From Rhodospirillaceae bacterium (GTDB taxonomy: Bacteria; Pseudomonadota; Alphaproteobacteria; GCA-2731375): DNA of 45,302 nt. The notes under the pieces were generated by a model. The model saw only the letters and a program-made list of their open reading frames with translations. It was not told the origin of the DNA and did no database searches. The stretch lies in NCBI GenBank assembly GCA_018667855.1, contig JABIRL010000230.1, positions 1 through 45,302 on the forward strand. Reading direction: 5' to 3'. A program made the position numbers and the translations under genes. Numbering within the stretch: position 1 is the stretch's first letter; each line of letters opens with the position of its first letter. This document shows, piece by piece, positions 12,879 through 38,877 of the stretch.

Positions 12879-12940
12879 CCCTATGCCGGGGCATTCCCTC
12901 CCGGCGGCAACGAGCAACTTGGTTGGGCACGGCAGGCACA

Positions 12941-15734: not shown

Positions 15735-15753
15735 GCCGACAGAGAGCTTTGAC

Positions 15754-19676: not shown

Positions 19677-19780
19677 AAAGACCCCCGACCGGCGCGGCCT
19701 GGTCCCACCCACCGTGGAAACCGAATTGCCGGCGACCGCCACTGTCTGTTGAAATCCAGCCCTATCTTGCCCACGCCGAC

Positions 19781-19864: not shown

Positions 19865-20746
19865 TCAAGGGCCGATGATCAATCCTAGATACCAATTGGC
19901 CAGCCCTTGGCCAAAAAAAATGGCGATGATACCGCCACAGGCAAGAAACGGGCCGAACGGAACGGCCGAACGCCGGTCCCGGGAAAAAAACAGCATCATC
20001 GCCAGACCAACCAGGCTGCCTGTCAGAAAGGCGACGATCAGGGATCCGATCAGGCCCTGCAGCCCAAGCCAGGCACCAATCACGGCGGCCAACTTCCAAT
20101 CACCCCGCCCAATGCCTTGGCGGTGGGTCAGGATAAGATAGACCGCATTGATCAGCGCCAAAATTCCGTAACCGCAGACGGCACCGAGAATGGCGCGGTC
20201 CGCCGTAACCGGGCCGCCGATGGCGCTGGCCGCCAAGCCGACCCAGATTGCAGGCAAGGTCAGCATATCGGGGATAGTCATCAATTCGGCATCGATGAAG
20301 GCGATGACGAGCAACAGGCACGCCAGCCCAAAACCAATAGCGGCCCCGGCGGTAAAGCCAAACCGCCACAGGGCTAACAACGCCAAGGCGCCGGTCAGCG
20401 CCTCGACCATCGGATAGCGCAGGGATATGGCGGTACGGCAGGCGGAACATTTCCCGGCCAGGGCAAGGTAACTCAGCAGCGGAACATTTTCATACCAGGC
20501 CAGCCGATGACTGCAGCCGGGACAATGGGACGGCGGTGAGATAAGGAGCCATTTGGAAAATTGAGCGGCTACGCTAGTGCCTGCGGTACTTTCAGTGTTG
20601 TCTTCCGTGTCTTCAAGTAGCTGGGGCAATCTGACGATGACAACGTTCAGAAAGCTGCCGAACAACGTCCCAAACAAGGCGCCGATGGCCAGACTTAATC
20701 CCTGTTGTTGTTCGAAGAACCGAACCGCCAACTCAGAAATGCTCAT
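19865..20746 (-). CDS. pilD: Prepilin peptidase (PilD/GspO family)
   Basis: Inner-membrane aspartyl protease that cleaves and N-methylates type IV prepilins and pseudopilins. The 293-residue protein begins with a hydrophobic helix (IGALFGTLFGSFLNVVIVRLP, the family's GSFLNVVIxRLP motif). It then has the cytoplasmic zinc domain with two CxxC pairs (CPGC and CSAC) found in bifunctional PilD enzymes, followed by several helices. The two catalytic Asp motifs are IAFIDAELMTIPD and GRGDWKLAAVIGAWLG. It faces away from the major pilin gene across a 335-base intergenic region and should process the pilin and the four minor pilins of this locus. Confidence 0.94.
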   Translation of the reverse strand: MSISELAVRFFEQQQGLSLAIGALFGTLFGSFLNVVIVRLPQLLEDTEDNTESTAGTSVAAQFSKWLLISPPSHCPGCSHRLAWYENVPLLSYLALAGKCSACRTAISLRYPMVEALTGALALLALWRFGFTAGAAIGFGLACLLLVIAFIDAELMTIPDMLTLPAIWVGLAASAIGGPVTADRAILGAVCGYGILALINAVYLILTHRQGIGRGDWKLAAVIGAWLGLQGLIGSLIVAFLTGSLVGLAMMLFFSRDRRSAVPFGPFLACGGIIAIFFGQGLANWYLGLIIGP

Positions 20747-21028: not shown

Positions 21029-21053
21029 AGGTTGGTGTGTGGATAGCCAACCT
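21029..21053 (+). repeat. Inverted repeat in the pilin leader
   Basis: AGGTTGG and CCAACCT form a 7-base stem around an 11-base loop, ending 28 bases before the pilin start. Two further AGGTTG copies lie just upstream. The hairpin could affect message stability or translation of the abundant pilin, or the repeats could bind a regulator. Confidence 0.4.
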
Positions 21054-21081
21054 GAATATGCAACCGGCAAGAAGGTGCGAG

Positions 21082-21678
21082 ATGATGTTTCAAATCAGCA
21101 AGAGTCAGAAGACCCGCCAGAGCGGTTTTACCCTGGTAGAACTCATGGTTGTCGTAACGATTATCGGTATTTTGGCCGCCATCGGCGTTCCAAGAGTGTT
21201 TGCCTACGTTCGGGCTAGTGAAACAGCCGAGGTTTCCCAGGGCGGCGGCCGTATATCGGCGGCGATTAAGGCCTATGGGGATTCCCAGTTGAAAGCCGCT
21301 GCGGCGGTTGTCACGGATTTGGACGCCACCACTTTGACCCCCGATGGTTCGGGCGCGAGTGAAATAACCGCGATACTGCCCATTCTGAAATTGCCCCAGG
21401 ATGGCAAATTCGACTATGCCATCAGCGCCGCTGTCGGTGCCGCGGGAACGCCCCAGGCGGGCGAGACGGTCTTTTGCATTACCGCCACCGGCCGAACCAA
21501 TGCCGGTGTGGTCGGCGGAAAGCTGCTGTATTCCAGCGTCGAAACCACGGCGACGGGCTGGGATGGCCGGGTCAATCGCATACCGTTCGTTAATGGCGAC
21601 ACGGATCTGACATCGGCCACCGCGGGCGGTTATTGCGCCGCGACCGGCACGGCCCAAGCTACGTGCACGAGCTGTTAA
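21082..21678 (+). CDS. Type IV pilin / major pseudopilin
   Basis: A 198-residue prepilin with a short basic leader (MMFQISKSQKTRQSG) and the class III signal G|FTLVELMVVVTIIGILAAIGVPRV, with Glu at mature position 5. The mature protein is about 183 residues. Two cysteines near the C terminus (GGYC and CTSC) could form the D-region disulfide loop typical of type IV pilins; the calcium-binding C-terminal loop of GspG was not recognised. The ATG at 21082 follows GAAGG (21071-21075) at a suitable distance; starts at 21037 or 21058 would lengthen the leader. As the only pilin in the main operon it is probably the major subunit of the fibre. Confidence 0.9.
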   Translation: MMFQISKSQKTRQSGFTLVELMVVVTIIGILAAIGVPRVFAYVRASETAEVSQGGGRISAAIKAYGDSQLKAAAAVVTDLDATTLTPDGSGASEITAILPILKLPQDGKFDYAISAAVGAAGTPQAGETVFCITATGRTNAGVVGGKLLYSSVETTATGWDGRVNRIPFVNGDTDLTSATAGGYCAATGTAQATCTSC

Positions 21679-21734: not shown

Positions 21735-23399
21735 ATGCCAACCGGCCCTCAGTCTATCGACCAGGCGGCGGATAGCGTAGGCCGGCCCGAAACGAGCCCC
21801 CGCCCCAACGGGCGGGGATCGTCGGGTGGATCAGAGACCGCAACATCCGAACTGCCGGGCAGCGAACGCTATGTGGATTGGCACCTGATCGGTAAGGGCG
21901 GATTCTCTCACGTTTACCGTGTCTGGGACAGGGAACTCGAGATCAACCTGGCCATAAAACTCCTCCGCCAGGGTGATAAAAACACCGGCCCGGTTCAAAA
22001 GCTGCGAAACGAGGTCTTGGTTTCCCGGGCCCTGCGCCATCCTTGCATTTGTCCGGTGCACGACATCTACGAAGGCAATTCGGGCTTCGGCGTGGTCATG
22101 GACTTGCTGCAAGGCTGCGATCTTAAAACCTGGCTGCAAAGCCACAAGGATCAGGTGCGCGACACGTATGAGGAACGCTTCCAACTGCTGATCCAGTTAA
22201 GCGACGCGCTGTCCCTGGCGCATGCCCGCATAGTTCATCGCGACCTGAAGCCGTCAAACATATTTCTCCGCGACAATGATATCGAACACCCCTTGATCCT
22301 GGACTTCGGGTTGTCGGCGCTGGACCAGGATCAAACGAAGTTGAGCCGTTCGGGAACGCCCAAATATATGGCGCCGGAACAACTGGACGGCAGGGCGGAT
22401 GCGCGATCGGACCTGTTCGCCATGGGTATCATCGCCTATGAAGTGATGACGGGTGGGCGACATCCCCACCGCACCGGCAAACAAGATTCCGCGGACCTGG
22501 AAAACCCAACTGGTGATCAAGAGCCAACGGCACCCAGCACCTACTGCGATCTGATCACGGAATCTCTGGACCGTCTCATTCTGCAACTTATCCGCCATGA
22601 TCCCGCCGAACGGCCACAGGCCGCCGGCGAGGTGCACGCGGCGTTGCTGGCCATTGCACGGGAACCCAAGGCAGCGCCGGCGAAGGCGACGGCGATAGTG
22701 GCAAATTCCGAAAATACCAATCGCGTGCTGATCCCCGGCGGTTTCTATCACATCGGCTCGCAGGCATCCTGCCGCTTCGATGCCGAGAAACCCCTGCGCC
22801 GCATAGAGCTCTCCGACTTCCATCTATCGGTCTACCCGGTGACTAACAAGGAATACCGTGACTACACCCAGGCAACGGGACGACCGCTGCCGCCCCTTGG
22901 CGCTGATCCTGTATATGGGCGCGACGATCATCCGGTGGTGATGGTTTCCTGGCAGGATGCGACCGACTATGCCGCCTGGATCGGCGGCCGACTGCCGACA
23001 GAACTTGAATGGGAGGTCGCCGCGAAGAGCGGCCAAAAATTCGTGGACTATCCGTGGGGTGGCGATCAGCCCACCACGCAGCACGCGAACCATGACAACA
23101 TCGTCGGAACGACGACTCCGGTAACGGCGTACCCTCTTGGACGCAATGCGTTAGGGCTTTCCGAGATGGCCGGGAATACATGGGAATGGTGTCTCGACAG
23201 CTGGAACCAGCACTATTACCGCAGCCTGTCGGACGGGGACCAGGATCCGAAGTTCGTCAGCGGCAATGACGAATTCAAGGCGATCAGGGGCGGCAGCTTC
23301 GAGGCGTTTCCGAACATGTGCCGTTGCACGTTTCGGCACCGGGCCGAGGGGTCGGAACGTCGACCCGACATTGGCTTCCGAATGGCGTTCGACGAATGA
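21735..23399 (+). CDS. Ser/Thr protein kinase fused to an FGE-sulfatase-like domain
   Basis: A soluble 554-residue Hanks-type kinase. After a disordered start, the kinase domain (about 45-310) has the glycine loop GKGGFSHVY, K75, catalytic HRDLKPSN (D170), DFGLS (190-194) and APEQ, so it looks active. The C-terminal part (about 331-553) is an FGE-sulfatase/SUMF1-like fold (GGRLPTELEWEVAA, MAGNTWEWC, IRGGSFEA, RPDIGFRM). The first active-site Cys of true FGE is not at its expected place, so this half is more likely a binding module. No membrane helix joins the halves, unlike many PpkA-type kinases. It sits between the pilin and the assembly ATPase, so phosphorylation of pilus parts or of an FHA partner is the natural hypothesis. 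Confidence 0.9.
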   Translation: MPTGPQSIDQAADSVGRPETSPRPNGRGSSGGSETATSELPGSERYVDWHLIGKGGFSHVYRVWDRELEINLAIKLLRQGDKNTGPVQKLRNEVLVSRALRHPCICPVHDIYEGNSGFGVVMDLLQGCDLKTWLQSHKDQVRDTYEERFQLLIQLSDALSLAHARIVHRDLKPSNIFLRDNDIEHPLILDFGLSALDQDQTKLSRSGTPKYMAPEQLDGRADARSDLFAMGIIAYEVMTGGRHPHRTGKQDSADLENPTGDQEPTAPSTYCDLITESLDRLILQLIRHDPAERPQAAGEVHAALLAIAREPKAAPAKATAIVANSENTNRVLIPGGFYHIGSQASCRFDAEKPLRRIELSDFHLSVYPVTNKEYRDYTQATGRPLPPLGADPVYGRDDHPVVMVSWQDATDYAAWIGGRLPTELEWEVAAKSGQKFVDYPWGGDQPTTQHANHDNIVGTTTPVTAYPLGRNALGLSEMAGNTWEWCLDSWNQHYYRSLSDGDQDPKFVSGNDEFKAIRGGSFEAFPNMCRCTFRHRAEGSERRPDIGFRMAFDE

Positions 23400-23487: not shown

Positions 23488-25605
23488 ATGACAGTTGAAA
23501 ATCGCGCAGTACCTGCAGGCGGCGGCCAAAAACCCGGATTAAATCCCGACGGACGCAGCTTGAATATTGATGAGCCAACGATCGATCTGGAAGCCGACGA
23601 AACCTTGTTGGTGCCGGACAATCCTTTGCCTGCCGACCAGGAATGGGAAAATCCCGTCGTTGAGGGTCTTCTGGGCTCAAAAACCGACCTATTGGACGGC
23701 ATATCCGACCCGCAATTCGACGAAACGGAAGAGACCCGCGGCGACCCGGATTGGCCGGTCGATGACAATTCCCGCTCATCCACCATCGACAATGAACAGG
23801 AAGCCCGGGCGGCACGGCAACGGGCGGCGCGGCTAAGAATTGATGCCAATCTTGGCGGCTCCGGCACGGCGGCGGCGAAGAAGAATAGCATTCTAAAGGG
23901 CTTCCCCCTCGAACTCATGGAGCGGCGCCTGATTAATGAACGCAAGGCCGTATCGATCGCACTGCAGACCCGCGCCTCCGGCAAGACGTTCTTCCGCACC
24001 CTCGCGCAGGAACGCGGAATGGGCAATCTGGAGGATATTTACCGGGCCCTGGGCGAGCGGGTCGGACAGCAACCGATCGAAGCGAAGGGCGAATTGTTTG
24101 ATCGCCTCTATCATGCGGATTGGCTATCAGCCGGCCAAGCCGAGCAACGAGCGATCCTGCCCCTGATTTCGCCGGACCCGGACGTGACGGCCTTTGCCGC
24201 GATTGATCCGCTTGATGTCGTCGATCAGGACTGGGTTCAGCGGCAATCAAAACAGTCTACGGTCGTGGTGCCGATCCTGCCTGATCTATTTTGGGAAGGG
24301 TTGAGCCGGTACAAGAAACTCGACCTCGATAATGTGAAGGAGTCAGAGCTTTTTATTCCCATTGATATCTCGTGGTCGAAGGAAGAAGAAGTGCAGGCGG
24401 ATTTCGCCGATTGGGATATTCCGGTCGTCGTCAACTACATTATTCACCGCTCGTTCGAGCAGGGCGCATCCGACGTTCATGTGGAGCCGACGGGTGATGA
24501 TCTGACCATCCGATACCGGGTTGACGGTATGTTGCACGAACAAGCCCGGTTGCCGGCTTCCATGCATGCGCCGGTCACGTCGCGCATCAAGGTACTGGCG
24601 GATCTTGATGTCGCCGAAACCCGTCGCCCCCAGGATGGCCGTATGAGCGTCGCGATCCGCGACCGGCCGATCGATATCCGGGTTTCGACCCTGCCCATGG
24701 TGGCGGGCGAAAAGGTCGTGATGCGGCTGCTTGATGAAAGTGCCCTTCGGCCACGGCCGGAACGCCTCGGCTTGAGCGATCGTGATCTGCAACTGCTGCT
24801 GGACAAGGTCTCGGCTCCGCTGGGAATGATCCTGCTCAGCGGGCCGACGGGATCGGGCAAGACCACAACTCTTTATTCCTGCCTGTCGGCGATTGATAGG
24901 ATCAGCCGGAATGTCGTTACCGTCGAGGACCCGGTGGAATACCGCCTCAAGGGCGTTCATCAGATGCAGGTCAATGAAGCCATCGGCATGACGTTTGCCA
25001 CCGGCTTGCGGACCATGCTGCGGCAGGATCCCGATGTGATCATGGTCGGCGAGTGCCGGGATGTGGAGACTTCGGCAATGGCGATCCAGGCCGCGCTTAC
25101 CGGTCATTTGGTGTTCACCACAATTCATTCGAACAGTGCCATCGGCGCGGTTGGCCGCCTGGTCGACATGAAGATCGATCGCTTTCTGATCGCCAACGCG
25201 CTGTCTTTATCGATTGCCCAACGCCTGTTGCGCTGCACGTGCAAACATTGCCAGACCACGGTTGATGGGCGGGAAATCATCGCCGGTCTTCGGTCCGAGG
25301 GGATTTCGGTCGAAAAGTTGGCGCATCTTGGTATCGACATCGACCCGGACCAGCCTTGCCCGACGACGACGGGTTGTCCGCGGTGCCGGCATACCGGGTT
25401 TAGCGGCCGGCAGGCGGTGTTCGAGATGTTTTCGATGACCGATGAAGCCCGTCTGTGCCTTGTCTCTGATCGCTTCGATCTGGCCGAGTTCCGGCAGATC
25501 ACCAAGGATCAGGGCATGAGCACCATGCTGCGATCGGGCATGGCGCTGGTCGATGAAGGACGGACATCCTATTCCGAAGTGGTTCGGGTGCTGGGCGAAA
25601 TGTGA
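23488..25605 (+). CDS. gspE: Type II secretion/type IV pilus assembly ATPase (GspE/PilB)
   Basis: Cytoplasmic hexameric ATPase that drives pilin assembly. The 705-residue protein has an unusual acidic, probably disordered start of about 110 residues, then a GspE/MshE N-terminal-type domain, then the ATPase core. Visible motifs are GASDVHVEPTGDDLTIRYR, Walker A SGPTGSGKTTT (about 451-461), the Asp box VEDPVEYRL, the Walker B region RQDPDVIMVGECRD and the His box TGHLVFTTIHSNSA. The usual GEIRD is GECRD here. The zinc-binding tetracysteine motif CTCKHC...CPRC is present. It overlaps the GspF gene. It is the only assembly ATPase in the window; no PilT retraction ATPase was found. Confidence 0.95.
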   Translation: MTVENRAVPAGGGQKPGLNPDGRSLNIDEPTIDLEADETLLVPDNPLPADQEWENPVVEGLLGSKTDLLDGISDPQFDETEETRGDPDWPVDDNSRSSTIDNEQEARAARQRAARLRIDANLGGSGTAAAKKNSILKGFPLELMERRLINERKAVSIALQTRASGKTFFRTLAQERGMGNLEDIYRALGERVGQQPIEAKGELFDRLYHADWLSAGQAEQRAILPLISPDPDVTAFAAIDPLDVVDQDWVQRQSKQSTVVVPILPDLFWEGLSRYKKLDLDNVKESELFIPIDISWSKEEEVQADFADWDIPVVVNYIIHRSFEQGASDVHVEPTGDDLTIRYRVDGMLHEQARLPASMHAPVTSRIKVLADLDVAETRRPQDGRMSVAIRDRPIDIRVSTLPMVAGEKVVMRLLDESALRPRPERLGLSDRDLQLLLDKVSAPLGMILLSGPTGSGKTTTLYSCLSAIDRISRNVVTVEDPVEYRLKGVHQMQVNEAIGMTFATGLRTMLRQDPDVIMVGECRDVETSAMAIQAALTGHLVFTTIHSNSAIGAVGRLVDMKIDRFLIANALSLSIAQRLLRCTCKHCQTTVDGREIIAGLRSEGISVEKLAHLGIDIDPDQPCPTTTGCPRCRHTGFSGRQAVFEMFSMTDEARLCLVSDRFDLAEFRQITKDQGMSTMLRSGMALVDEGRTSYSEVVRVLGEM

Positions 25606-26648
25606 TGCTGGCCTCGGACAAGACGGCGCATTTATATATCTTCACCCAGCAATTCGCATCAATGATGGCCAGCGGTTTGCGGCTGGTTTCCGTGCTCTCC
25701 AATCTGGCCAGGGAAATGCCCAGCCGGCGGCTTCGCAACGTGGTCGAGGATATCACCGAGGATGTCTATTCCGGGATCAACCTTGCCGACGCCATGGAGA
25801 AGCACCCCAAGGTATTCAATAATATTTACGTAAACATGGTTCGCTCGGGACTAAACGCCGGCAAACTATCCGAAGCGTTGGAACAATTATCTGAATACCT
25901 GGAAAAAGCGGACAACGTAAAAAAGAAAATACAGACCGCATGCCTGTATCCGGCATTCATTTTTATCGCGTTTGTCATCGTTTTCCACGTTATGAGTTTT
26001 ATTATACTTCCAAGATTTCAGGTTTTGTTTGAAACCATGGGAAGAAAACTTCCGGACATGACCCTTTTGGTGATGAATATCGGTGTATTCTATGCGGACA
26101 ACTGGCCGTTTCTGCTCGGCGGTCTAATCTTCATAATCGCGCTTTCCTTTGTCTGGGTCACCAGCACGGACGGACGTTTGATCTGGGACGAGATGAAATT
26201 GCGCCTGCCCCTGGTTGGAACCGTATGGCGGGCCGCCGCCGTGTCGCGTTTTCTGAGAACGTTCGCGGTCCAACTGCGAAATCACATACCCGCCGTACAG
26301 GCACTTCGATTGGCGGCCGATGCCACCGCCAATGCCTATCTGGCGGAGATCGTGTGGCAAGTGGCCGAGCGGGTGGAATCCGGCGAAACGCTCGCGGCTT
26401 CCTTTGGCCGTGAGGAGATATTTGAAGGTATCGTTGTGCAGATGGTGGCCTCGGGTGAAGAAGCCGGGACCATGGATCGACTACTGCTGTCGGCGGCCAA
26501 CTATTTCGACACCCTGTTGTTTCAACGCATCAACAGCCTGACGGCGATGGTCAACCCATTGCTGACGGCCATCGTTGGCGCCGGCATCGCCGGCATGCTG
26601 GTGGCTTCGTTCCTGCCGGTTTTCGAGATGTCAGGCGGCGCTTATTAG
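25605..26648 (+). CDS. gspF: Inner-membrane platform protein (GspF/PilC)
   Basis: Polytopic platform that couples the ATPase to pilin extraction from the membrane. The 347-residue protein contains two T2SSF domains (roughly residues 12-135 and 210-335), each followed by helices (ACLYPAFIFIAFVIVFHVMSFIILP, PFLLGGLIFIIALSFVWV, LLTAIVGAGIAGMLVASFLPVF). The motif MVRSGLNAGKLSEALEQLSEYLEK and its counterpart MVASGEEAGTMDRLLLSAANYF are typical of the family. The ATG at 25605 shares one base with the ATPase stop; a GTG at 25602 is the alternative. A gap of about 80 bases with a CtrA-like site follows. Confidence 0.94.
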   Translation: MLASDKTAHLYIFTQQFASMMASGLRLVSVLSNLAREMPSRRLRNVVEDITEDVYSGINLADAMEKHPKVFNNIYVNMVRSGLNAGKLSEALEQLSEYLEKADNVKKKIQTACLYPAFIFIAFVIVFHVMSFIILPRFQVLFETMGRKLPDMTLLVMNIGVFYADNWPFLLGGLIFIIALSFVWVTSTDGRLIWDEMKLRLPLVGTVWRAAAVSRFLRTFAVQLRNHIPAVQALRLAADATANAYLAEIVWQVAERVESGETLAASFGREEIFEGIVVQMVASGEEAGTMDRLLLSAANYFDTLLFQRINSLTAMVNPLLTAIVGAGIAGMLVASFLPVFEMSGGAY

Positions 26649-26696: not shown

Positions 26697-26729
26697 ACTG
26701 GACTAATTTGGTGCCGGTCCGTGAAGTCT

Positions 26730-28712
26730 ATGGTTTTGGGTGGAGCCGCATTGTCAATCCTGCACACTGCTTCCCTGCAAAAGGTCCAAACCCTTGCGCA
26801 AGACCTGCTGAAAGGCCGGTCCCGGCGAGGCGGCCTTCGGCTGTCTTCCAGTTCGGAGGCGGTCTACGGCATTAATATTTTCGCCTCGGAAACCGACTGG
26901 AGGGTCTCGGTTTTCGATCTGCAAAGTGCCGCCATCCTGCGCACCGTCGAAGCCGACCCCGAGAGCATGCGGGCAGGCGGCGGCGATCCTTTGCTCGACA
27001 ATCTCGGTGAGGCCTTCGCCGCCCTGAAAAACGCCGAGAGGGAGCTCTGCGGCGGTGTCTATCTTTGTGTCGAAGATCCCAGGGTCGACTTCCTCGATAA
27101 CAGGATGCTGCAGTTTCCCAATCCGGATGACCCTCGGATTACCGAATTTGTGCAGGATCTGACCGGCGAGGAACAATGTGCTTTCGACCGGGCCCCATTC
27201 GGAATTTCGAGCGGGGATGAAATCCAACGAAGCGTCTACGCGGTCATTTCCCTAACGCGGCTGAAACAGATCCTGTCAGTTACCGACCGGCTTGCCATCA
27301 AGGTGCGGTCGATCTCTCCGGCGGGCGCCAGCCTTCTCCGCACGGCGCAGCGTCATGAGGGGATTCCCCATGGCGCCCTTTATCTCGGCGCCACCACGTC
27401 GACCATCCTGATCGCGGATGCGGTCGCCGGTTCCGTGATACAGCGTGTCATCCCGGCCGGTACGTCGACCCTGGCGGCCGCGCTGGCGGAGGCCAATTCC
27501 GTTCCCCAGGACGAAGCCGCGAATGCGCTGCATCGACGCAACCTGATCGCCAAAATTCCACCACCGCCGAAATCAACCGACAATCCGAGCCTGCCAAGCG
27601 GCAGCGCCACGCAGAACGCATTGCTGCCGGTGGTATGGAAAATCCGCCAGACAATCGACCAGTCCTTGGATTACTTTTCCGCCCTGCGGTTGGTCGAGCC
27701 GCCGCATCAAATAGAAGTACATGGTAATTTCCATACCGTAACCGGTTTGGTGGATTGGCTGGGACATAACCAGACTGTGTCCTTCGTAAAACCCCAACAC
27801 AGGATCTTCGACGAGTTCATTGCACAAGGTACCGAGAAAAGCATCAATCTGCTGCAGGGCACCGACCAGCCATTGATCATCGAAGGTCGCACCAGGTACT
27901 TTTTCAAAAACGGCCAATTTGAACCGCAGGAAACCAAAACCGCCGTCGAACCGCGAAAGATAGGGCCGAAACAGCGGACAAAGAAAAAATCATCGAATGA
28001 CCGGCACGGGTCAAACGAGCCGGAAAATAAGCAAAAACGATTTCTGCTGCTGGGCGCGGTCGCCCTGGCCGGTCTGGCGTTTCTGATTCTTGACAGCGAT
28101 TTCGGGTCATTTCAAAAACAGGGCGCCGCGAAATTCCAGGCCTTGAGTACCGCGTTGGCGAAAAATTCCAACCTTCGGAGTCGTAGCCTGGCGTTGCGCG
28201 ATCACCAGGAAACGCGACCCAAGACGCCCACATCGGCACAGAAAATCCTCTGGACGGAGAAGTTTTTCGCCATATCGAGCAATATTCCAAACGGCCTTTG
28301 GATTTCGGATGCCTATCTGGTGCACAGCAAAAGAATGATCAGCGATGTCGAGGTGGTCACCACTAAATTTGTTCTGAAGGGTGGCTCCGGCGCGGCGACA
28401 CAGGAAAGGCTGAAGGAAATTGCCATGTTCATCGCGCGCCTGGAAGCGGACGAAGTCTTCATGCGCGATTTTCGCCGCCTGACATTCGAGGGTACGGAAG
28501 CCCTGCACGACGAACCGAATTCAATTATTAAGTACGAGATCCATGCCTGGTATGACAAAAACAAAAGGGGGCCGGGCGGTGGCGGAAAAGGAAAGAACAA
28601 AGGCAAGAAGTCCGGCGTTCTGGGCCAAATGCAGAATACTGTCGGTGACCGGCAGCAGCAGCAACAGAATTTTCTTGAAAATCCGAACGCCAACAAAGGC
28701 GGGGGCTCTTAG
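26730..28712 (+). CDS. PilM-PilN fusion (GspL-like inner-membrane assembly protein)
   Basis: A 660-residue protein joining two parts usually made separately. Residues 1 to about 400 resemble the actin-like fold of PilM/GspL (VYGINIFASETDWRVSVFDL, GALYLGATTSTILIAD, the helix ALLPVVWKIRQTIDQSLDYF). The phosphate-loop Asp of ATP-binding PilM seems replaced (YLGATT instead of DIGxxxT), so ATP binding is doubtful. After a Lys-rich stretch comes one transmembrane helix (about 437-455), then a PilN-like periplasmic part with coiled coil and a ferredoxin-like fold (LWISDAYLVH, VVTTKFVLKGGSG, FEGTEALHDE). The Gly/Lys/Gln-rich tail is probably disordered. This is the layout of GspL. The start is uncertain: ATG 26730 or GTG 26721. 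Confidence 0.82.
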   Translation: MVLGGAALSILHTASLQKVQTLAQDLLKGRSRRGGLRLSSSSEAVYGINIFASETDWRVSVFDLQSAAILRTVEADPESMRAGGGDPLLDNLGEAFAALKNAERELCGGVYLCVEDPRVDFLDNRMLQFPNPDDPRITEFVQDLTGEEQCAFDRAPFGISSGDEIQRSVYAVISLTRLKQILSVTDRLAIKVRSISPAGASLLRTAQRHEGIPHGALYLGATTSTILIADAVAGSVIQRVIPAGTSTLAAALAEANSVPQDEAANALHRRNLIAKIPPPPKSTDNPSLPSGSATQNALLPVVWKIRQTIDQSLDYFSALRLVEPPHQIEVHGNFHTVTGLVDWLGHNQTVSFVKPQHRIFDEFIAQGTEKSINLLQGTDQPLIIEGRTRYFFKNGQFEPQETKTAVEPRKIGPKQRTKKKSSNDRHGSNEPENKQKRFLLLGAVALAGLAFLILDSDFGSFQKQGAAKFQALSTALAKNSNLRSRSLALRDHQETRPKTPTSAQKILWTEKFFAISSNIPNGLWISDAYLVHSKRMISDVEVVTTKFVLKGGSGAATQERLKEIAMFIARLEADEVFMRDFRRLTFEGTEALHDEPNSIIKYEIHAWYDKNKRGPGGGGKGKNKGKKSGVLGQMQNTVGDRQQQQQNFLENPNANKGGGS

Positions 28713-28715
28713 AGC

Positions 28716-29549
28716 ATGGGTCCGGGCGCAAAACCGCAACGGAAACTGGCTCTGTCGCTTGGATTCCTGATCCTGTCCCTGGCCGCATTCGTCTGGACGA
28801 ATATCATTTCGAGCTACCAGAACATCGTTGAGTCTACCAGAACAGTCATACAATCCACCGCGACGGAAAACGCAGATTATGCGAACAAGATTTCCAGAAT
28901 AGAAAAAATAAAGAACCAATCCAAAACGAAGAAAAAGAAAACAATCAAGTTGACGTCGCTGCCAGAGTTCTTGATCAAGATCGATAGCATCGCACTTCAA
29001 AATGATATTCATATCAACAATTTGCGGCCGGATGAAAAACAAAAAGGCGTGTTTCATTTGGAATTTTATTCCGACTATGCGCGCTTCGAGAGCTTTATTT
29101 CTTCGTTGGAATTGCTCGATGTCGATATCGTTGACCTTCAGATCCATCCCTATAATCAGAAACTGGCGCAACCGATACAGTTACATGTCATCTCGTTGAT
29201 ACCGCGCAATAACGCGGCCTCGCTAAAGATCCCGCAGCTGACTGAAATACGCGCGCGCTTGGGCCAGGTGGGGCGGCGCAACCCCTTCCAGCGGCTGCGC
29301 GCCAATAGTCTGCAAAGTGCGAAAGAAGCCCGTATCGATTTAACCTGGGTTCATCACCTGACGGCTGTAACGGCAATCAACGATAATCGTTTTGCCACCA
29401 TAAATGACCATGACTACGCGATCGGTGATCTGTTCCAGGGCAAAACCGTGACCGAGGTATTGTCGGACCATGTCTTCCTCGAGCAGAAAAACAAAAAACG
29501 GCTGGATTTGTACGTCCTCAATTTTCGGGATTCCAAGAACGAACAATAG
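28716..29549 (+). CDS. PilO-PilP-like fusion
   Basis: A 277-residue protein. It begins with a short cytoplasmic tail and one transmembrane helix (LALSLGFLILSLAAFVWTNII), then a coiled coil with a Lys-rich patch and a PilO-like ferredoxin fold (about 80-170; SLPEFLIKIDSIALQNDIHINNL, FHLEFYSDYARFESFISSLELL). The last 90 residues start with GRRNPFQRL, the hallmark of PilP/GspC/MshK homology regions. They continue as a small beta domain (LTAVTAINDNRFATINDHDYAIGDLFQGKTVTEV) expected to bind the secretin N-domains. So one chain seems to cover both PilO and PilP, or a GspM/GspC equivalent. The gene starts three bases after the PilMN gene and is visibly more A-rich than its neighbours. Confidence 0.8.
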   Translation: MGPGAKPQRKLALSLGFLILSLAAFVWTNIISSYQNIVESTRTVIQSTATENADYANKISRIEKIKNQSKTKKKKTIKLTSLPEFLIKIDSIALQNDIHINNLRPDEKQKGVFHLEFYSDYARFESFISSLELLDVDIVDLQIHPYNQKLAQPIQLHVISLIPRNNAASLKIPQLTEIRARLGQVGRRNPFQRLRANSLQSAKEARIDLTWVHHLTAVTAINDNRFATINDHDYAIGDLFQGKTVTEVLSDHVFLEQKNKKRLDLYVLNFRDSKNEQ

Positions 29550-29689: not shown

Positions 29690-31723
29690 ATGAGCGTTAT
29701 GGGTGTACCAAATCAGGGCCTGCCGGCCCGTCTGGCGACATGGCTGCGTACTCTCGGTAACAAATCCGGCAGCAATTCTATAATCGGCCCGATGTGGGCT
29801 TTCGTGATCGTCGCTATCTTAGGCGGATCGACCATACTGGTTGTCAGGGATATCAGATTCACGGAACTGGCGGATAGCGCCCGCAAACAGATTGTTCTGA
29901 TAGAGACAGCCCGGTACATAGACCAAAAAGACAAAACCACGGACGCCGGTGGTTATTTCCACCCAACGCCCGCATCGATGCCGGTGCGAAAATCGCCACC
30001 AGTGCATCGAGCGACTTCGACGGGCGGTTATCGAGTATTTTCCCGCACGGCAGGCGCCGGCCGATTGCTTGCGCCACAGGGAATGAAAGATCACAACCTG
30101 TTCGAATCGTTGACCAAGCCGCCATATCAAAGCGTTATCGCGACCGAAACCACCCTGGCCGGGCCGGCATTGACTTATGCTTCCGCGATCGTCCTGGAAG
30201 AAAGATGTCAAAGTTGCCACGTCGCGAGGAACGTGATGATTTCCGCCGACCGACGGCCGGGCCAGATAACGGCGATCGAAATCCTGACGATCAAGGGCGA
30301 ATGGGCAATTTGGGCTGCCTTGGGTGATTTGAAATTCATCTTGGCGGCGGTCTTACTGGCCCTTCTGGCGATGCTGGTCCTGCTGCTGCGGGCGCGTGGC
30401 GAGACGGTGGAGGCAGCGAAGCAGCTGCGCGTCCAACAGAAGGACGCCGCCGACTTGCAACGGGAATACAGGATCCGGACCGAGGAACAACAGGCGGCAA
30501 AAGAAAAAGCGGAGGCCGCCAATAAAGCGAAGTCGCAATTCCTGTCGATCATGAGTCACGAACTCAGAACGCCCCTGAACGCTATTATTGGTTTTTCGGA
30601 AACCATCGCCGACGAGCCGTTTGGCCCCCTGGGCCACGAAAAATACAATGAATACCTCGGCGACGTTTTGAACAGCGGGCAGCACCTCCTATCGTTGGTC
30701 AATGACCTGCTGGATATGAGCCGGGTTGAATCCGGCAAGATGAACTTAAAGAATGAGCAAATTGAAATCGAAACCCTGATCAGCTCGGTCATTCGCCTGA
30801 TGTCGCCGGAAGCCCGCATGCATCAGGTGCGCCTGGATGCCCGCGTTTCGCCTGGGTTGGGCAAGGTTTGGGGCGATGAACGGGCCTTGCGGCAGGTGCT
30901 GATCAATGTGGTCAACAATGCGGTGAAGTTCACCGATGCCGACGGCCACGTCACCATTACCGCCGATGAAAGCCAGTCGGGCAGCATGTTGATCCAGGTG
31001 GTGGATACCGGTTGCGGCATTGACCCGGAAAAATCGAAACTGGTTTTCGAGACGTTTGAGCAAGGCGCCGACGGCTATGCCCGAACCCATGAAGGCGCCG
31101 GACTGGGCCTTAGCATCGCCAAAGCGCTGGTCGAGCAGCACGACGGCACCATCAGCCTTGAAAGCTCGCCCGGCATCGGCACCGTTGTCACCCTGGTACT
31201 GCCGCCCAGCCGCGTGCTGCCTGACGAAGACGATGATGTCACGATCCTGGACGAAGAAGACTTATCCGATGACCCGGATTTCGCATCCGTCCTGGTGCTG
31301 GAATATGCGGGTGTCACGAAGCAGTTTTTCAAAGGCAGCGGTGAATTTATAATCGGCCGTAATAACCAGAAGAAACTCACTCAGACGTGTGATTTTGTCG
31401 TCGATGATCGCCATGTTTCCCGGCCCCACGCCCGCATCATCTACGATGCCGGCAGTTTCTATCTGGTCGATGAAAGTCGATTGGGCACGTATGTCTATTT
31501 CGAAGATGCCGATCCTGAATTCATCCATAAGAACGTCAGTTCGCCGCTGACGCTCTGTGGCTGGATATCGCTTGGTGCGCCGTTGAACGAAAACCCCGAT
31601 CACCAGATCGCGTTCGAACGGGTCTTACCAGATAGCAATGCCCATGCCGGGGCTGATGATGGCGATGGTTCCGACGACTCACTGTCCGAAAGGGATGTGG
31701 CTCCACCCGCGTCCGCGGCCTGA
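29690..31723 (+). CDS. Membrane histidine kinase with periplasmic CxxCH sensor and C-terminal FHA domain
   Basis: A 677-residue hybrid signalling protein. Two transmembrane helices (about 31-52 and 215-235) flank a periplasmic domain of the DUF3365/Tll0287 type that contains C173-QS-C-H177, a covalent c-heme motif, so redox or gas sensing is likely. A coiled coil leads to the HisKA domain (SHELRTP, H290) and the HATPase domain (NNAVKFTD, DTGCGID, GAGLGLSI). An acidic linker then leads to an FHA domain from about 545 (FIIGRNN, VSRPHARI, SRLGTYV), which normally binds phosphothreonine; the conserved Asn of SxNGTxV is Leu here. No receiver domain is present. The ATG at 29690 with GAAGG upstream is preferred to 29654. 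Placed between pilus genes and followed by a PP2C phosphatase. Confidence 0.9.
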   Translation: MSVMGVPNQGLPARLATWLRTLGNKSGSNSIIGPMWAFVIVAILGGSTILVVRDIRFTELADSARKQIVLIETARYIDQKDKTTDAGGYFHPTPASMPVRKSPPVHRATSTGGYRVFSRTAGAGRLLAPQGMKDHNLFESLTKPPYQSVIATETTLAGPALTYASAIVLEERCQSCHVARNVMISADRRPGQITAIEILTIKGEWAIWAALGDLKFILAAVLLALLAMLVLLLRARGETVEAAKQLRVQQKDAADLQREYRIRTEEQQAAKEKAEAANKAKSQFLSIMSHELRTPLNAIIGFSETIADEPFGPLGHEKYNEYLGDVLNSGQHLLSLVNDLLDMSRVESGKMNLKNEQIEIETLISSVIRLMSPEARMHQVRLDARVSPGLGKVWGDERALRQVLINVVNNAVKFTDADGHVTITADESQSGSMLIQVVDTGCGIDPEKSKLVFETFEQGADGYARTHEGAGLGLSIAKALVEQHDGTISLESSPGIGTVVTLVLPPSRVLPDEDDDVTILDEEDLSDDPDFASVLVLEYAGVTKQFFKGSGEFIIGRNNQKKLTQTCDFVVDDRHVSRPHARIIYDAGSFYLVDESRLGTYVYFEDADPEFIHKNVSSPLTLCGWISLGAPLNENPDHQIAFERVLPDSNAHAGADDGDGSDDSLSERDVAPPASAA

Positions 31724-31747: not shown

Positions 31748-32545
31748 ATGTTAATTTCAAACCTTTCGGCCGGTGTCGTCGAACACCACCAATCCGACGC
31801 CGCGCCGTGGCGGGCTGAAAGCCTTGCCCTGTCGCAAAAAGGACAGCGCCACGACAGTAATGGTGATCGCTATCTGGTAAGCCGGCGGATCGAATTATTT
31901 GCCGTCGCCGACGGCATCGGCAGCGCAGCCAAGGGTGAGGAAACGGCCGATCTTTGCCTGAGCTACCTTGATGATCACTTATCGGGGGCGCTGGAGAGAG
32001 CTCCTCTCTCGACCGCGATAATCGAGGATGCATTGCGGGCCACCAATGGGCGGTTGCTGTCCGGGGTGCGGAACTATGACGGCTCTCTCCGCATGCGCGG
32101 CGGTTGTTGTATCGCCGGTATGATATTTGCCCCGGGCCCGGAACCCATGGTGCATGTCTTTCACGTGGGCGACGTCAGGATTTATGGCGGCACGGCGGCG
32201 GGCTTATCCCCACTTACCGAGGACCATGTGGTGCCGGCAAAAAAAGCTACGGCATCGGGCGATCAAGCGCGAACGCGGCCCAAGGGCCGTGTTACCAAAG
32301 CTCTTGGCGTCCGCCCGAGCCTTAAGGCGACGTTCCGCAAGGTGGCGCTCGATGATTTCTCGTTTTTTCTTATTTGTTCGGATGGCGTGGTGAGGAGCCT
32401 TGGCGATAGGCGTATCGACACGATATTTTGCGGCCGCGCACAGTCCTTGGAACAAAGTTTTGCCGATTTCGCCTTCGAATTGGAACGTAGCAAGCCGGAA
32501 GACGATGCAACGGCGCTATTGATCGCCCCGCGCGGCAATTCATAG
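31748..32545 (+). CDS. PP2C family Ser/Thr protein phosphatase
   Basis: A 265-residue soluble metal-dependent phosphatase of the PppA/PrpC/Stp1 type, which removes phosphate from Ser and Thr residues. The metal-site motifs are all visible: GQRHDSNGDRYLV, AVADGIGSAAKG, HVGDVRIYG, LTEDHV, LICSDGVV and PEDDATALL. The first motif has NGD where most members have NED. It lies 24 bases after the FHA histidine kinase and, with the kinase at 21735, completes a phosphorylation/dephosphorylation pair inside the pilus locus. The natural inference is that it reverses the kinase's marks. Confidence 0.92.
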   Translation: MLISNLSAGVVEHHQSDAAPWRAESLALSQKGQRHDSNGDRYLVSRRIELFAVADGIGSAAKGEETADLCLSYLDDHLSGALERAPLSTAIIEDALRATNGRLLSGVRNYDGSLRMRGGCCIAGMIFAPGPEPMVHVFHVGDVRIYGGTAAGLSPLTEDHVVPAKKATASGDQARTRPKGRVTKALGVRPSLKATFRKVALDDFSFFLICSDGVVRSLGDRRIDTIFCGRAQSLEQSFADFAFELERSKPEDDATALLIAPRGNS

Positions 32546-32611: not shown

Positions 32612-32672
32612 GCTAAATTCGTCATGCTTAACGGTGTCGAATTCATTGGATAATGCGCCGCCGGCGAAAGAA

Positions 32673-34643
32673 ATGACGATCCATCAGCCGATAACAACAA
32701 GACCCGTCAGTCCCGGCCGTATTGCGCGGGGGCGAGCCGTTGGCTTTATTGCGACGTGCGTGTTGGCCGTCATGCTAACCGTGGGGTTGGCAACGTCGGC
32801 GCTGGCGCAGGAACAGAAAAAGAATATTCCATGGCAACCGGGCGGCAGCATTAGCCGTACGTCCGTTGATGACGATATCCGCAGCGTCCTGAGGAGTCTG
32901 CTGCAGGCCAGCGATCTCTCCACCATTTTTCGCCCCGGCGTGTCGGGCACGATTTCCCTGCGTCTGGATAATGTTGTGCCCCGAGAAATATTCAATCAGA
33001 TCATCGTCGAACGAGGTCTCGATTACGAATACAATCCGGCTTCGCGTACGGTGACGATATTTCCCGCCGACGCCAAACTGACCGCCGAGCCGGACCGGGC
33101 CTTTATCACCCTGGAAAATATCACCGTTGCTACCGTCAGGCGCGCCGTGCGCGGCTTCGGGATGGAGATCGCGAGCATTTCCTATGACCAACAGTCAAAC
33201 ACCATTTCGGTTATCGATGTGCCCGATAAGGTCACGGAATTCACCAAGCTGATCAAGACATTGGAAGGAGCGGCCACGCGCCGCCGCCAACGGACCGTCC
33301 AGGACGAGCAGGACGAACGGCAGAAGCGCCGCGCCAAGGTCGAGGCACAGCTGTACGAAGATCTGCTGAGCGGTGATGTGAAGGTTATTCCACTGCGCTA
33401 TGCGTCCGTGGGTGCGACGACACGGGAGTTTCATGGCCGCACGGTGACAGTGCCCGGGATCGGCGAGACATTGAAAGCCATATTGGGCAATCTGAATATC
33501 AATCGACCGGGCCCTGGTGGCCGCCCCCCGCCTCGGCGGGGTGGAAAACGCGGCGAGGGTGGCGAGAGCGAAGAGCAGTTTTTGTTGCGCGTTCAGGAAC
33601 TCTCGCGGCCATTCGTCTCCATCGACCCGCGCACTAATTCGGTGATCGTCCGGGGCACGCCTAAAGCCATCGCCGGGGTTGAAAGGGTTCTTCGTGACCT
33701 CGACCAGCCCCTGCGCATGATCGAGATAGAGGTTATCATCGCGACGGCCCAGCTTGGCGTGGCCGAGGAGCTTGGCATCCGTTGGCGCGGCGCGCAGTTC
33801 TCGGAAAGCGGCGATCCCAAAGCGGGCGCCATCGACACCGGTACCGGCAACGGCCAGGTAAGTACCGATGACGACGGCATCAGCACCAACGGTCTGGATG
33901 CGCTGTCCCTGCTGCCGGTCGCCGCCTCGCCCAGCGCCACTATCGCGGCCTTTGTCCTGCGGGGAACCCAAGGCATCATTCAGGCCCAGTTGCGCGCGCT
34001 GGCCGAAGAAAACAAAGCGCAGATCCTCTCCGCGCCGCGTATCGTGACGCTGCAGAATATTACCGCCCGCATAACCCGCAGCCAGGACCTTTTTGTCCAG
34101 GTTGATACAGGCGGTGACAACGGACAAGGATTGGAAACCATACAGACGGGTCTGACCCTGGAAATCACGCCGTCGATTATTCCCGCCCGTCAGAAAAACG
34201 GCACCCCGGAAATCCGGCTAAGCCTGACAGCCGTCAATTCCGCGCCGGGCGCGGGTTCCTTCGGACAGATTGATGTGCGGTCACAGGAGGTGCAGACGGA
34301 AGTCCTGGTCCCGAACGGCGGCACTTATGTCATTGGCGGCTTGTTCGACGACAATCGCATCGAGCAGGAAAGCGGCGTCCCCGGCTTGAAAGATCTGCCT
34401 CTGTTCGGCGCATTGTTCCGAACCAACGTTTCGCGCAACCAGCTTGGGGAAACGATTTTTTTCATCACCCCGCGGGTTATTGAAGACACCGCCTCCTATG
34501 CCGGCGATATCGCCGTGCGCATGGGATCGGCGGAGTATATTCGCCAACAGCGCCGGCGGTTGGACGAAGTCAGTCGCAGCGCCATGCAGGGGACCGGCGC
34601 CATCTTTCCCAACGCCCTCCACAACCTGGAAGAAGACGAATGA
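32673..34643 (+). CDS. Outer-membrane secretin (GspD/PilQ/MshL family)
   Basis: Forms the multimeric outer-membrane channel for the pilus or secreted fibre. From the ATG at 32673 the precursor is 656 residues, with a long basic N-region and a signal peptide (AVGFIATCVLAVMLTVGLATSALA). The periplasmic part has small N-domains (VSGTISLRLDNVVPREIF, VKVIPLRYASVGA, PFVSIDPRTNSVIVRGTP). A Gly/Pro/Arg-rich insert lies near the middle (about 295-305). The secretin domain follows (LRALAEENKAQILSAPRIVTLQNITARI, VLVPNGGTYVIGGLFDD, VPGLKDLPLFGALFRT, ETIFFITPRVIED). No S-domain for pilotin binding was recognised at the C terminus. The stop overlaps the next gene by four bases (ATGA). A GTG at 32634 is an alternative start. 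Confidence 0.94.
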   Translation: MTIHQPITTRPVSPGRIARGRAVGFIATCVLAVMLTVGLATSALAQEQKKNIPWQPGGSISRTSVDDDIRSVLRSLLQASDLSTIFRPGVSGTISLRLDNVVPREIFNQIIVERGLDYEYNPASRTVTIFPADAKLTAEPDRAFITLENITVATVRRAVRGFGMEIASISYDQQSNTISVIDVPDKVTEFTKLIKTLEGAATRRRQRTVQDEQDERQKRRAKVEAQLYEDLLSGDVKVIPLRYASVGATTREFHGRTVTVPGIGETLKAILGNLNINRPGPGGRPPPRRGGKRGEGGESEEQFLLRVQELSRPFVSIDPRTNSVIVRGTPKAIAGVERVLRDLDQPLRMIEIEVIIATAQLGVAEELGIRWRGAQFSESGDPKAGAIDTGTGNGQVSTDDDGISTNGLDALSLLPVAASPSATIAAFVLRGTQGIIQAQLRALAEENKAQILSAPRIVTLQNITARITRSQDLFVQVDTGGDNGQGLETIQTGLTLEITPSIIPARQKNGTPEIRLSLTAVNSAPGAGSFGQIDVRSQEVQTEVLVPNGGTYVIGGLFDDNRIEQESGVPGLKDLPLFGALFRTNVSRNQLGETIFFITPRVIEDTASYAGDIAVRMGSAEYIRQQRRRLDEVSRSAMQGTGAIFPNALHNLEEDE

Positions 34644-36334: not shown

Positions 36335-36931
36335 TCATTTGGTTCGGATCGTTTGGATCTTGGCCAGGCCACCGACGTCGCTGCTGCCCGTAACCGACGC
36401 GTCGATGCATTCGTCGGTCGTTGAAACCAGGCCCGTACAGAAGTAGACGTCGAGGTCCCGGATTTGCGGCCAGATCCCGGCGATCGCAATCATCGGACTG
36501 GTGTCGAGATCGACAAATGCAATATTCAGAATCAATTTGCCGGAATGGTTGGAACCTTCGTTCTGTACATCCGCCGCGCCGTCGATGTTGAGGTAGTAGT
36601 CGCTGCTGATCTCGTCATACCGCCAGCGCCGGTACGACACACCGCTGTCGCGCAGTTCGGTCAAATAGCCGATGTAGCTGTCGCGCCGCTTGTTGTCATT
36701 GTTACAGTTGCTGCCGCCGCACAAATCGCCTTCCCGGCCCCGGCTGAGGGCGTAGGCAACATGGCCCATGCCAGCCCAATGGGTTCGCAACCGGGCAAGG
36801 TCCTCTTCCACAGCGCGGCTTTCGTTGACCACATCGTGGTTGAACAGGGATGCCGCCCCCAACATGGCGACCAGGCCGATCATGGTGACCGACAGCATCG
36901 CATAGCCTTGCTGGTTTGATTTGCGGCTCAT
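36335..36931 (-). CDS. Minor pilin-like protein (PilX/MshP type)
   Basis: A 198-residue protein with an N-terminal hydrophobic helix after a short basic leader (MSRKSNQQGYAMLSVTMIGLVAMLGAASLF). The leader-Gly then aromatic residue resembles the prepilin site of PilX/MshP proteins, which often lack the Glu at position 5; here position 5 is Ser. The rest is mixed and contains two cysteine groups (CGGSNC and CTGLVSTTDEC). It overlaps the PilW-like gene by four bases and is followed by the PilZ gene. The position as fourth of four pilin-like genes matches the PilX place in pilE-V-W-X operons. Confidence 0.78.
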   Translation of the reverse strand: MSRKSNQQGYAMLSVTMIGLVAMLGAASLFNHDVVNESRAVEEDLARLRTHWAGMGHVAYALSRGREGDLCGGSNCNNDNKRRDSYIGYLTELRDSGVSYRRWRYDEISSDYYLNIDGAADVQNEGSNHSGKLILNIAFVDLDTSPMIAIAGIWPQIRDLDVYFCTGLVSTTDECIDASVTGSSDVGGLAKIQTIRTK

Positions 36932-37545
36932 GGATAATTCTTCGGTTTTTCCAGAACTTGATTGAAGATCGTCTGGTAGCGGTCAATTGTCTGGCTGTTC
37001 GCCACGCGGCGGCGCCGCACAAGATATGGATTGACCAGGGTAAATTCCGTCTCCACCGTGCGGTCCCAGACGCTGCGGGCATCGTTTTCCACTGTTACGT
37101 CCTCACCCAGCCAGCCCGTGACCGTTTCGCTGTCGGCGGCGCCGGTACAATCGGGCAAGGGGTCGGCGGTGCCGTTGCAATCCACGGTTACCGTGGCCAG
37201 GGTGTCGCCGTCCAGGGTCAGGCCGTTGTTGGCATAGTTCAGTCGATAATCCTGCCGAAAGCCACCCGCCGTCGCGGTCTGCCGCCGGCGCAGGCCATAG
37301 ACCTCGTTGGTGCCGTCGGTACCGCTGGCGGTGATATTACGGCCGCCGTCACTCAGCACCACGAAAACGCTACGGGCCTGGGCGTTGAGGCGCAACCGCC
37401 CCTCCATCTCCGCCGCCATTTCCAAACTTTGGTTGAGCAGTGTCAGGGCCACGGTCAGCAGCGTCATACCCAGCGTCGTGGCGATCATCAGCTCCATCAT
37501 GGTGAAGCCGGCCTGCCGCCGCTTTTGTCCCACCCGCCGGTTCAC
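36928..37545 (-). CDS. Minor pilin (PilW/GspJ/MshO type)
   Basis: A 205-residue prepilin with leader MNRRVGQKRRQAG and cleavage site G|FTMMELMIATTLGMTLLTVAL, Glu at mature position 5. The larger mature domain has the RSVFVVLSDGGRNI segment, similar to the region after the helix in PilW/GspJ proteins that cap pseudopili. It overlaps its neighbours by four bases on both sides. It probably forms part of the tip complex that starts fibre assembly. Confidence 0.85.
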   Translation of the reverse strand: MNRRVGQKRRQAGFTMMELMIATTLGMTLLTVALTLLNQSLEMAAEMEGRLRLNAQARSVFVVLSDGGRNITASGTDGTNEVYGLRRRQTATAGGFRQDYRLNYANNGLTLDGDTLATVTVDCNGTADPLPDCTGAADSETVTGWLGEDVTVENDARSVWDRTVETEFTLVNPYLVRRRRVANSQTIDRYQTIFNQVLEKPKNYP

Positions 37546-38249
37546 AGCAGTCGCCCCACAATGGTTTTCAGGGGAATGATCTCTAACCTGGTTGCCTGCT
37601 GCACCACCGCGCCGGAGACCCAGCGGAAGGGATATTCAAGATAAACACTGATTTCCCGGCAGCGCGTGCCGGGGCCGCTACCGGTCCAGGCCGGGCAATA
37701 ACAGGGAGAACTTCCGCTTTGGCTGTATTCACCGTTTCCGTCACAGCTGTCGATCACGACTTCGGTTTCAATCCAGCTGAGTCGACCGACCACATTGCGA
37801 TCCTTATCGATCCAGACGTAATTGCGGTCATCGTCGGTACCGCTGTTGTCGTCGAACAGTACCGGCAATCCCGGTGCGCCGGCAAAACCACCGGCGGCGA
37901 CCACGAAGTTGTCGGCGGCCCCGTTCGGCATGTAGTTAGGCAAATCATTGCGGAAGATGATGCGGTTATCGGGGTAGGCGGCGGCGGAACCATAATTCGT
38001 AGTATCAGTCGTGGTGAAGACGGCGAAATCAGTATGAAAATAAAGCGCCGTCAGCCGCTCCATCTGTCCGTTCAAAACGAAAATCGCCTTCTGTCGCATA
38101 GTCAGGCCATCGACCTCTCCGGCCACGGCGGTCCACAGATTGGCCAGGCCCAGCACCAGTATGGAGGTGATAACCGTCGCGGCCAGTACCTCGACCAGGG
38201 TGAAACCATCCTCTCTGGTGCGCCTGCGGTTGGTTGGTTTGGCTGCCAT
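37542..38249 (-). CDS. Minor pilin (PilV/GspI/MshD type)
   Basis: From the ATG at 38249 this is a 235-residue prepilin with leader MAAKPTNRRRTREDG and site G|FTLVEVLAATVITSILVLGLANLW, Glu at mature position 5. An in-frame start at 38300 overlaps the preceding gene and lengthens the leader, so it is rejected. Four cysteines near the C terminus (CDGNG, CYC and TRC) could form disulfides. It starts four bases after the PilE-like gene and overlaps the PilW-like gene. Confidence 0.85.
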   Translation of the reverse strand: MAAKPTNRRRTREDGFTLVEVLAATVITSILVLGLANLWTAVAGEVDGLTMRQKAIFVLNGQMERLTALYFHTDFAVFTTTDTTNYGSAAAYPDNRIIFRNDLPNYMPNGAADNFVVAAGGFAGAPGLPVLFDDNSGTDDDRNYVWIDKDRNVVGRLSWIETEVVIDSCDGNGEYSQSGSSPCYCPAWTGSGPGTRCREISVYLEYPFRWVSGAVVQQATRLEIIPLKTIVGRLL

Positions 38250-38253
38250 GATC

Positions 38254-38877
38254 TCAGGGCTGCATCGCGCTGGTGGCGCTGATGCCCTCGTTCCAGACAT
38301 ATTTCAGACTGCGGTCGCCGGCCGCCGCGTCGATGCCGTTGGGCGGCGGCGGATAGCGCAATACGATGGCCTGGCCTTCCCGGCCCGGGTCCGATGTACC
38401 CGAGGCCTGGACCCAATTGGTGGGCGGGCGCTTGGAAGCCGACATTTTGCATTGTGCCGATCTGGGCGCATTGATGGTGGTCGCGTTCTGTTGCCGCAGA
38501 ACGGCCCAGACCTCGAACTCGATCGCCGGATCACCGGCTTCCACTGGGGCAATAAAGGCGGTGGCTGTTGGGTTGTTGCATTTGCCGGCGTCGGAGCAGA
38601 CGAACGCAAAACAGAAATCCCCGGCATCCTCTACACTGAGACCCAGGCCCTGGTTCAACAGGTCTTCATCAAAATTGTCCGTGGTGCAGCAATATTTTCC
38701 TTCCCGCAGGAAAAACTGCCGCTGTTTGGTCGCTATTTGCATCAGATACGCCTTGGCGCCCATCACCCGGGAATCGAGTATCTGCATGCGAAAATGCGGT
38801 ATGGCGATGGCCGATAGTATGCCGATTATGGTCACGACGACCATCAGCTCTATCAGTGTAAATCCCCGCGTTTCCAT
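38254..38877 (-). CDS. Minor pilin (PilE/PilA-like), first of the operon
   Basis: A 207-residue prepilin with a very short leader (METRG) and site G|FTLIELMVVVTIIGILSAIAIPHFR, the classic type IV pilin start with Glu5. Mature segments such as AKAYLMQIATKQRQFFLREGKY match the PilE-type minor pilins (cf. ATLRQIQLLQERYRLDNGTY-like regions). Several cysteines follow (YCCTTD, FCFAFVC, GKC). It heads a minus-strand operon PilE-V-W-X-PilZ that converges on the secretin operon. Confidence 0.88.
   Translation of the reverse strand: METRGFTLIELMVVVTIIGILSAIAIPHFRMQILDSRVMGAKAYLMQIATKQRQFFLREGKYCCTTDNFDEDLLNQGLGLSVEDAGDFCFAFVCSDAGKCNNPTATAFIAPVEAGDPAIEFEVWAVLRQQNATTINAPRSAQCKMSASKRPPTNWVQASGTSDPGREGQAIVLRYPPPPNGIDAAAGDRSLKYVWNEGISATSAMQP

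Follow-up and report, generated by a model that had tools for sequence, protein, structure and literature searches.

We analyzed a window of 45,302 nucleotides, positions 1-45,302 of contig JABIRL010000230.1 of a Rhodospirillaceae bacterium (assembly GCA_018667855.1), and found that a histidine kinase with a C-terminal FHA domain (hereafter HK-FHA) is encoded among genes for a T2SS/type IV pilus-like machine, together with a Ser/Thr kinase (STK) and a PP2C-type phosphatase. The genes of this locus are:

19865-20746, minus strand: prepilin peptidase (Pfam A24_N and Peptidase_A24)
21037-21678, plus strand: pilin or pseudopilin with an N-methylation motif
21735-23399, plus strand: STK fused to an FGE-sulfatase-like domain (Pkinase E-value 2.2e-37, FGE 6.2e-55)
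23488-25605, plus strand: GspE/PilB-like ATPase without FHA, with the N-terminal Thr motifs DEPTID (T31) and ADETLL (T39)
25602-26648, plus strand: GspF/PilC-like platform protein
26721-28712, plus strand: GspL-like protein without a Pfam match, its name taken from position and orthologues
28716-29549, plus strand: GspM/PilO-like protein (Pfam T2SSM E-value 2e-4, below the cut-off)
29690-31723, plus strand: HK-FHA, 677 residues (the open frame begins at 29654)
31748-32545, plus strand: PP2C-type phosphatase, immediately 3' of HK-FHA (PP2C_2 E-value 2.8e-11)
32634-34643, plus strand: secretin (GspD/PilQ-like)
36335-36931, 36928-37545, 37542-38300 and 38254-38877, all minus strand: four minor-pilin-like genes (N_methyl Pfam matches in three)

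PilZ is also encoded in this locus. The NCBIfam equivalog scores for T2SS proteins were missed by GspE (453 versus 630 bits), GspF (267 versus 424) and GspD (164 versus 351), and we therefore named the locus T2SS/T4P-like; its secretin is nearer to PilQ. The STK with its fused FGE-like domain is conserved in the related loci described below, and the key residues of HK, STK and FHA are largely intact. The original prediction had correctly noted a Ser/Thr kinase near the histidine kinase, but it had overlooked that both lie in a filament or secretion locus, that PP2C is encoded there too and that GspE carries Thr motifs. Adjoining the prepilin peptidase gene is a gene for a 1186-residue protein with a caspase-like domain (Peptidase_C14) and a peptidoglycan-binding domain (16182-19742, minus strand). 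The window also encodes a hemerythrin-type protein (15706-16170, plus strand) beside an ABC transporter operon, which includes a solute-binding protein (11749-12804) and a permease (12923-14668).

The HK-FHA gene contains the following features, all on the plus strand:

29789-29845: predicted transmembrane segment 1, residues 34-52 (hydropathy)
29960-30083: about 41 codons of poor in-frame usage inside the periplasmic domain (codon statistics)
30206-30220: CQSCH, residues 173-177, a candidate c-heme motif of the part predicted to be periplasmic
30329-30385: predicted transmembrane segment 2, residues 214-232 (hydropathy)
30527-30736: HisKA, residues 280-349, phosphoacceptor H290 (Pfam E-value 8.5e-20)
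30872-31207: HATPase_c, residues 395-506 (Pfam E-value 7.1e-30)
31229-31261: acidic linker DDDVTILDEED with a candidate phosphoacceptor, Thr518 (codon at 31241)
31295-31609: FHA domain and C-terminal extension, the Pfam core being residues 554-603

All three core domains scored above the Pfam curated cut-offs, FHA with an E-value of 5.8e-10 against PF00498 (39.9 bits versus a gathering score of 20.7). The catalytic residues H290, N410, D439, G441 and G469/471/473 are all kept, with intact N and G boxes, as are R557, S577 and H580 of the GR and SxxH core of FHA, which bears out the intact histidine kinase and the C-terminal FHA domain of the original prediction. The Leu that it had noticed in place of the Asn of the SxNGT motif is Leu598. 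This position is occupied by Arg or Ser in other HK-FHAs and, as judged from these sequences, Leu598 is part of a trait of the HK-FHA family; since the usual Asn is missing, the affinity of the window FHA may be altered. The structure model of HK-FHA was of moderate quality (pLDDT 65), with most FHA strands in blocks of 72-88, and the best Foldseek match of the histidine kinase was GacS (E-value 2e-18). Solved FHA structures matched by sequence were mostly GarA/OdhI. Pfam scans covering all but a few of the window ORFs gave no Response_reg match, and a literature search of open-licence texts on FHA histidine kinases returned no matching report.

When a sample of 385 genomes of the class was searched with the FHA region, two strong relatives emerged, G207 (43%) and G104 (37%), whose HK-FHAs are soluble proteins of 392 and 420 residues, respectively, with no predicted transmembrane segment and with a PP2C gene directly after their own. 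G104 is a distant alphaproteobacterium, and yet it keeps the window gene order from STK to secretin, the common order being STK-GspE-GspF-GspL-GspM-HK-FHA-PP2C-GspD. G207 and the closely related G754 (locus L036) have HK-FHA and PP2C on one contig and adjacent STK, GspE and GspF genes on another, and pieces of GspL and GspM were found at the ends of further contigs of G207. Strong matches to the window-type GspL among the 385 genomes were confined to the window genome, G104 and G207 (G045 gave a weak match), that is, the same three genomes that had strong matches to the HK-FHA-type FHA. A scan of genome contigs added one HK-FHA genome (L036) and two FHA proteins in other contexts; independent HK-FHA loci number three, in draft genomes. 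The R/S/H core of FHA is kept in all three. Ten other members of the genus to which the window belongs gave no match to the FHA-region profile. The shared synteny, the co-occurrence and the genus-mates without a match suggest that HK-FHA travels with the locus and is patchily distributed.

In related loci the FHA domain was found elsewhere. In G011, a member of the window's family, the gene after STK encodes a GspE whose N-terminus carries FHA (Pfam E-value 1.2e-15), and the FHA profile matched nothing else in this genome; the locus also encodes a cyclase-FHA protein and, close to the secretin, PP2C. An STK search in 398 genomes of the phylum identified seven more genomes, in all of which the STK gene was beside GspE, with other filament genes nearby where the contig allowed. 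Six loci among these genomes had FHA on GspE; no FHA was detected on the GspE of G414 or of a second locus of G491. Eight genomes have FHA-GspE or STK-linked loci. Of their matches to the HK-FHA-type FHA, several were cyclase-FHAs and six were left without an assigned ORF; none of the readable open frames contained the searched HK motif. Thus, the predicted STK, PP2C and filament genes form one conserved locus, whose putative reader FHA sits on GspE in the majority of the related lineages identified and, in the clade that includes the window, on a histidine kinase. A literature search of open-licence texts on FHA plus GspE gave no matching report.

In a midpoint-rooted tree of STK, GspE and GspF, the HK-FHA loci of the window, G104 and G207/G754 form a single clade, to which the FHA-GspE locus of G011 is sister (support 100). 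Most simply, FHA on GspE would be the older arrangement, GspE lost its FHA and HK-FHA arose once in the window clade, with the transmembrane segments and the periplasmic domain acquired later in the window lineage. We also considered a transfer of FHA from GspE to the histidine kinase, which is less likely: the window HK FHA scored 60 bits against a cyclase FHA and no more than 36 bits against GspE FHAs, and was therefore probably recruited anew rather than moved. Adenylate/guanylate cyclase-FHA proteins have the closest FHAs that we found outside the HK-FHA group and share the C-terminal extension with it, but their catalytic domain is a cyclase and they keep the SxNGT Asn. One such cyclase, with two FHA matches, lies inside the STK-linked filament locus of G011 (L043:158-1489).

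In most FHA-GspEs, acidic-x-Thr-hydrophobic motifs recur along the linker behind FHA, as in DTDATVVRPREEDATVMRP of G468; linkers of this kind after the N-terminal FHA were seen in L092 (G468), L042 (G011) and L094 (G437). Over all GspE N-terminal regions, the boundary of which was set crudely for G433 and G540, 45 Thr motifs were observed versus 5.8 expected in shuffled sequences, with none in G540 and one each in G491:C180 and G414. The GspEs of HK-FHA genomes, which have no FHA, contained 7 motifs versus 1.1 expected (P 1e-4), and each of the three HK-FHAs had one in the acidic linker before FHA (P 0.004). The P values come from composition shuffles. All these values are descriptive, because the motif was defined once the sequences had been viewed and, for the HK-lineage counts, was relaxed to allow Phe at its last position.

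The periplasmic part was more difficult to place. The DUF3365/Tll0287 family comprises Cache domains with c-type heme, and NO-sensor-like behaviour was seen in one member whose architecture is that of a signalling protein (PMC12889525). Histidine kinases with this domain (sCache_heme; PMC12889525) share with the window protein two transmembrane segments, a periplasmic CXXCH and a kinase output, whereas the window protein is below the family threshold, has lost conserved residues past CXXCH and carries FHA in addition. No match of HK-FHA to PF11845 was found even at an E-value of 10, while two other proteins of the window genome were matched in a genome-wide search. An hhalign comparison with an alignment of six DUF3365 domains gave a probability of 95% across residues ~92-205, owed for the most part to the half around CXXCH, with a less clear likeness in the first part. 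The DUF3365 residues following CXXCH (N, W and GDVRG) are not kept, a search for solved-structure relatives of the periplasmic part found none, and its AlphaFold model (pLDDT 44) was too low for use. The domain is missing from the HK-FHAs of G104 and G207. Of the periplasmic DUF3365-like c-heme sensor originally proposed, CQSCH between two transmembrane segments stood and the family assignment stayed below threshold; as the domain is also absent from both other HK-FHA lineages, sensing of redox state or gases outside the cell is no more than a possible function. Since DUF3365 domains bind c-type heme and CcmF is present in the genome, heme attachment is possible, and the domain is best read as a Cache-like addition in the window lineage that may bind heme.

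Codon usage in the first half of this domain was suspicious. Stretches as poor as 29960-30083 make up 0.2% of comparable stretches of the genome, another frame scores better, and codon statistics favour frames 0-2-1-0 over 29960-30074, so that a local, mutually compensating frameshift, natural or introduced by assembly, is possible. The composite-frame reading had a slightly worse hhalign score against DUF3365, with no gain over the annotated frame, and its search in the 385 genomes found no closer homologue. Profile comparison thus mildly prefers the annotated frame, and the periplasmic domain may be damaged or misassembled.

From the domains, neighbourhood, co-occurrence and motif counts observed, we infer a scheme of phosphorylation, binding and output. 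With slightly better than even confidence, we propose that HK-FHA is the phosphothreonine-reader subunit of a conserved, STK-controlled type IV filament machine of the T2SS/T4P-like kind, most readily understood as a replacement reader that would recognize marks set by STK on GspE, on its own linker or on both. STK would phosphorylate the acidic-x-Thr-hydrophobic motifs of the GspE N-terminus (T31 and T39) and of the HK linker (T518); the FHA domain would bind one marked Thr, bringing HK to the machine or folding it on itself; PP2C would reset the mark; and HK would relay the state of the machine to a putative response regulator. In the window lineage, the periplasmic domain would supply a further input, possibly through heme. 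The original prediction that His-Asp signalling is coupled to the reading of phosphothreonine made by the nearby kinase is well supported by the conserved neighbourhood and the co-occurrence: as a sensor kinase with FHA is encoded inside a locus that also encodes the matching kinase and phosphatase, two signalling languages, Ser/Thr and His-Asp, probably meet at one machine. More tentatively, and at somewhat less than even confidence, the related loci may represent a filament-machine lineage with a built-in phosphothreonine code, comprising acidic-x-Thr-hydrophobic motifs on the ATPase, often in arrays, a dedicated STK as writer, PP2C as eraser and an exchangeable FHA reader, on the ATPase or on HK, the latter passing the state of the machine into two-component signalling.

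Part of this scheme could operate alone. STK might mark Thr518, with the FHA of the same protein clamping onto it and shutting or opening the kinase without GspE, which would suit both the acidic-x-Thr-hydrophobic motif just before FHA in all three HK-FHAs and the sequence matches to GarA/OdhI structures. In GarA and OdhI, FHA binds a Thr motif near the N-terminus of its own chain, phosphorylated by an STK in a segment beside FHA, a layout that resembles the HK linker and its candidate Thr518, but these proteins are stand-alone metabolic regulators, not histidine kinases. GspEs of the same genomes, however, keep several Thr motifs without an FHA of their own, suggesting a reader in trans, and we regard a purely intramolecular switch as unlikely.

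A periplasmic heme-based redox or NO sensor kinase, for which FHA would be an accessory localisation tag, appears somewhat less likely still. CQSCH between the transmembrane segments, the hhalign likeness, the NO-sensor-like behaviour of a DUF3365 signalling member (PMC12889525) and CcmF all point in this direction, but they have to be set against the missing PF11845 match, the lost N, W and GDVRG, the codon anomaly and the absence of the domain in G104 and G207, where HK-FHA is nevertheless kept. We consider it very improbable that HK-FHA is a histidine kinase of the usual kind, unconnected to the neighbouring machine, whose FHA was joined to it by chance or is in decay. Such a protein might well have lost the FHA Asn, suffered a frameshift in its sensor part and be an orphan kinase, but it would hardly be expected at the same position, with the same neighbours, in a distant genome; the conserved synteny, the co-occurrence in the class sample and the R/S/H core conserved in all three HK-FHAs argue against it.

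The nearest known arrangement is that of T6SS, in which PpkA phosphorylates Fha, or a structural subunit (TssL) that is then bound by Fha; in A. tumefaciens the Fha protein binds the phosphorylated structural subunit, and in two species Fha is dephosphorylated by PppA (PMC10482370). In the window, too, a Ser/Thr kinase, a PP2C phosphatase and an FHA reader are encoded in one locus with an envelope-spanning secretion machine. The differences are that this machine is a T2SS/T4P-like filament, that FHA is on a histidine kinase or, in related loci, on the ATPase, and that the STK has an FGE domain and no predicted transmembrane segment, whereas a membrane-associated kinase characterizes PpkA-PppA-Fha-type systems. 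A literature search of open-licence papers found no description of a T2SS/T4P-like machine controlled in this way. If correct, our reading would extend control by threonine phosphorylation, described for T6SS, to T2SS/T4P-like machines, show how a motor ATPase and a histidine kinase can take turns as the carrier of a reader domain, and thereby connect Ser/Thr with His-Asp signalling physically.

Class III CpaF/TadA offers a parallel for the GspEs of the related loci: here, too, an ATPase of type IV filaments carries FHA at its N-terminus, joined by a disordered linker (PMC12019362). CpaF/TadA is a Tad ATPase, and the cited passages of PMC12019362 describe neither an STK/PP2C pair nor arrays of Thr motifs for it; the window GspE, for its part, has no FHA. 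At L091:12315-15493, just upstream of the secretin gene, G468 encodes another Ser/Thr kinase, this one bearing a cyclic-nucleotide-binding domain, as well as a separate FHA protein.
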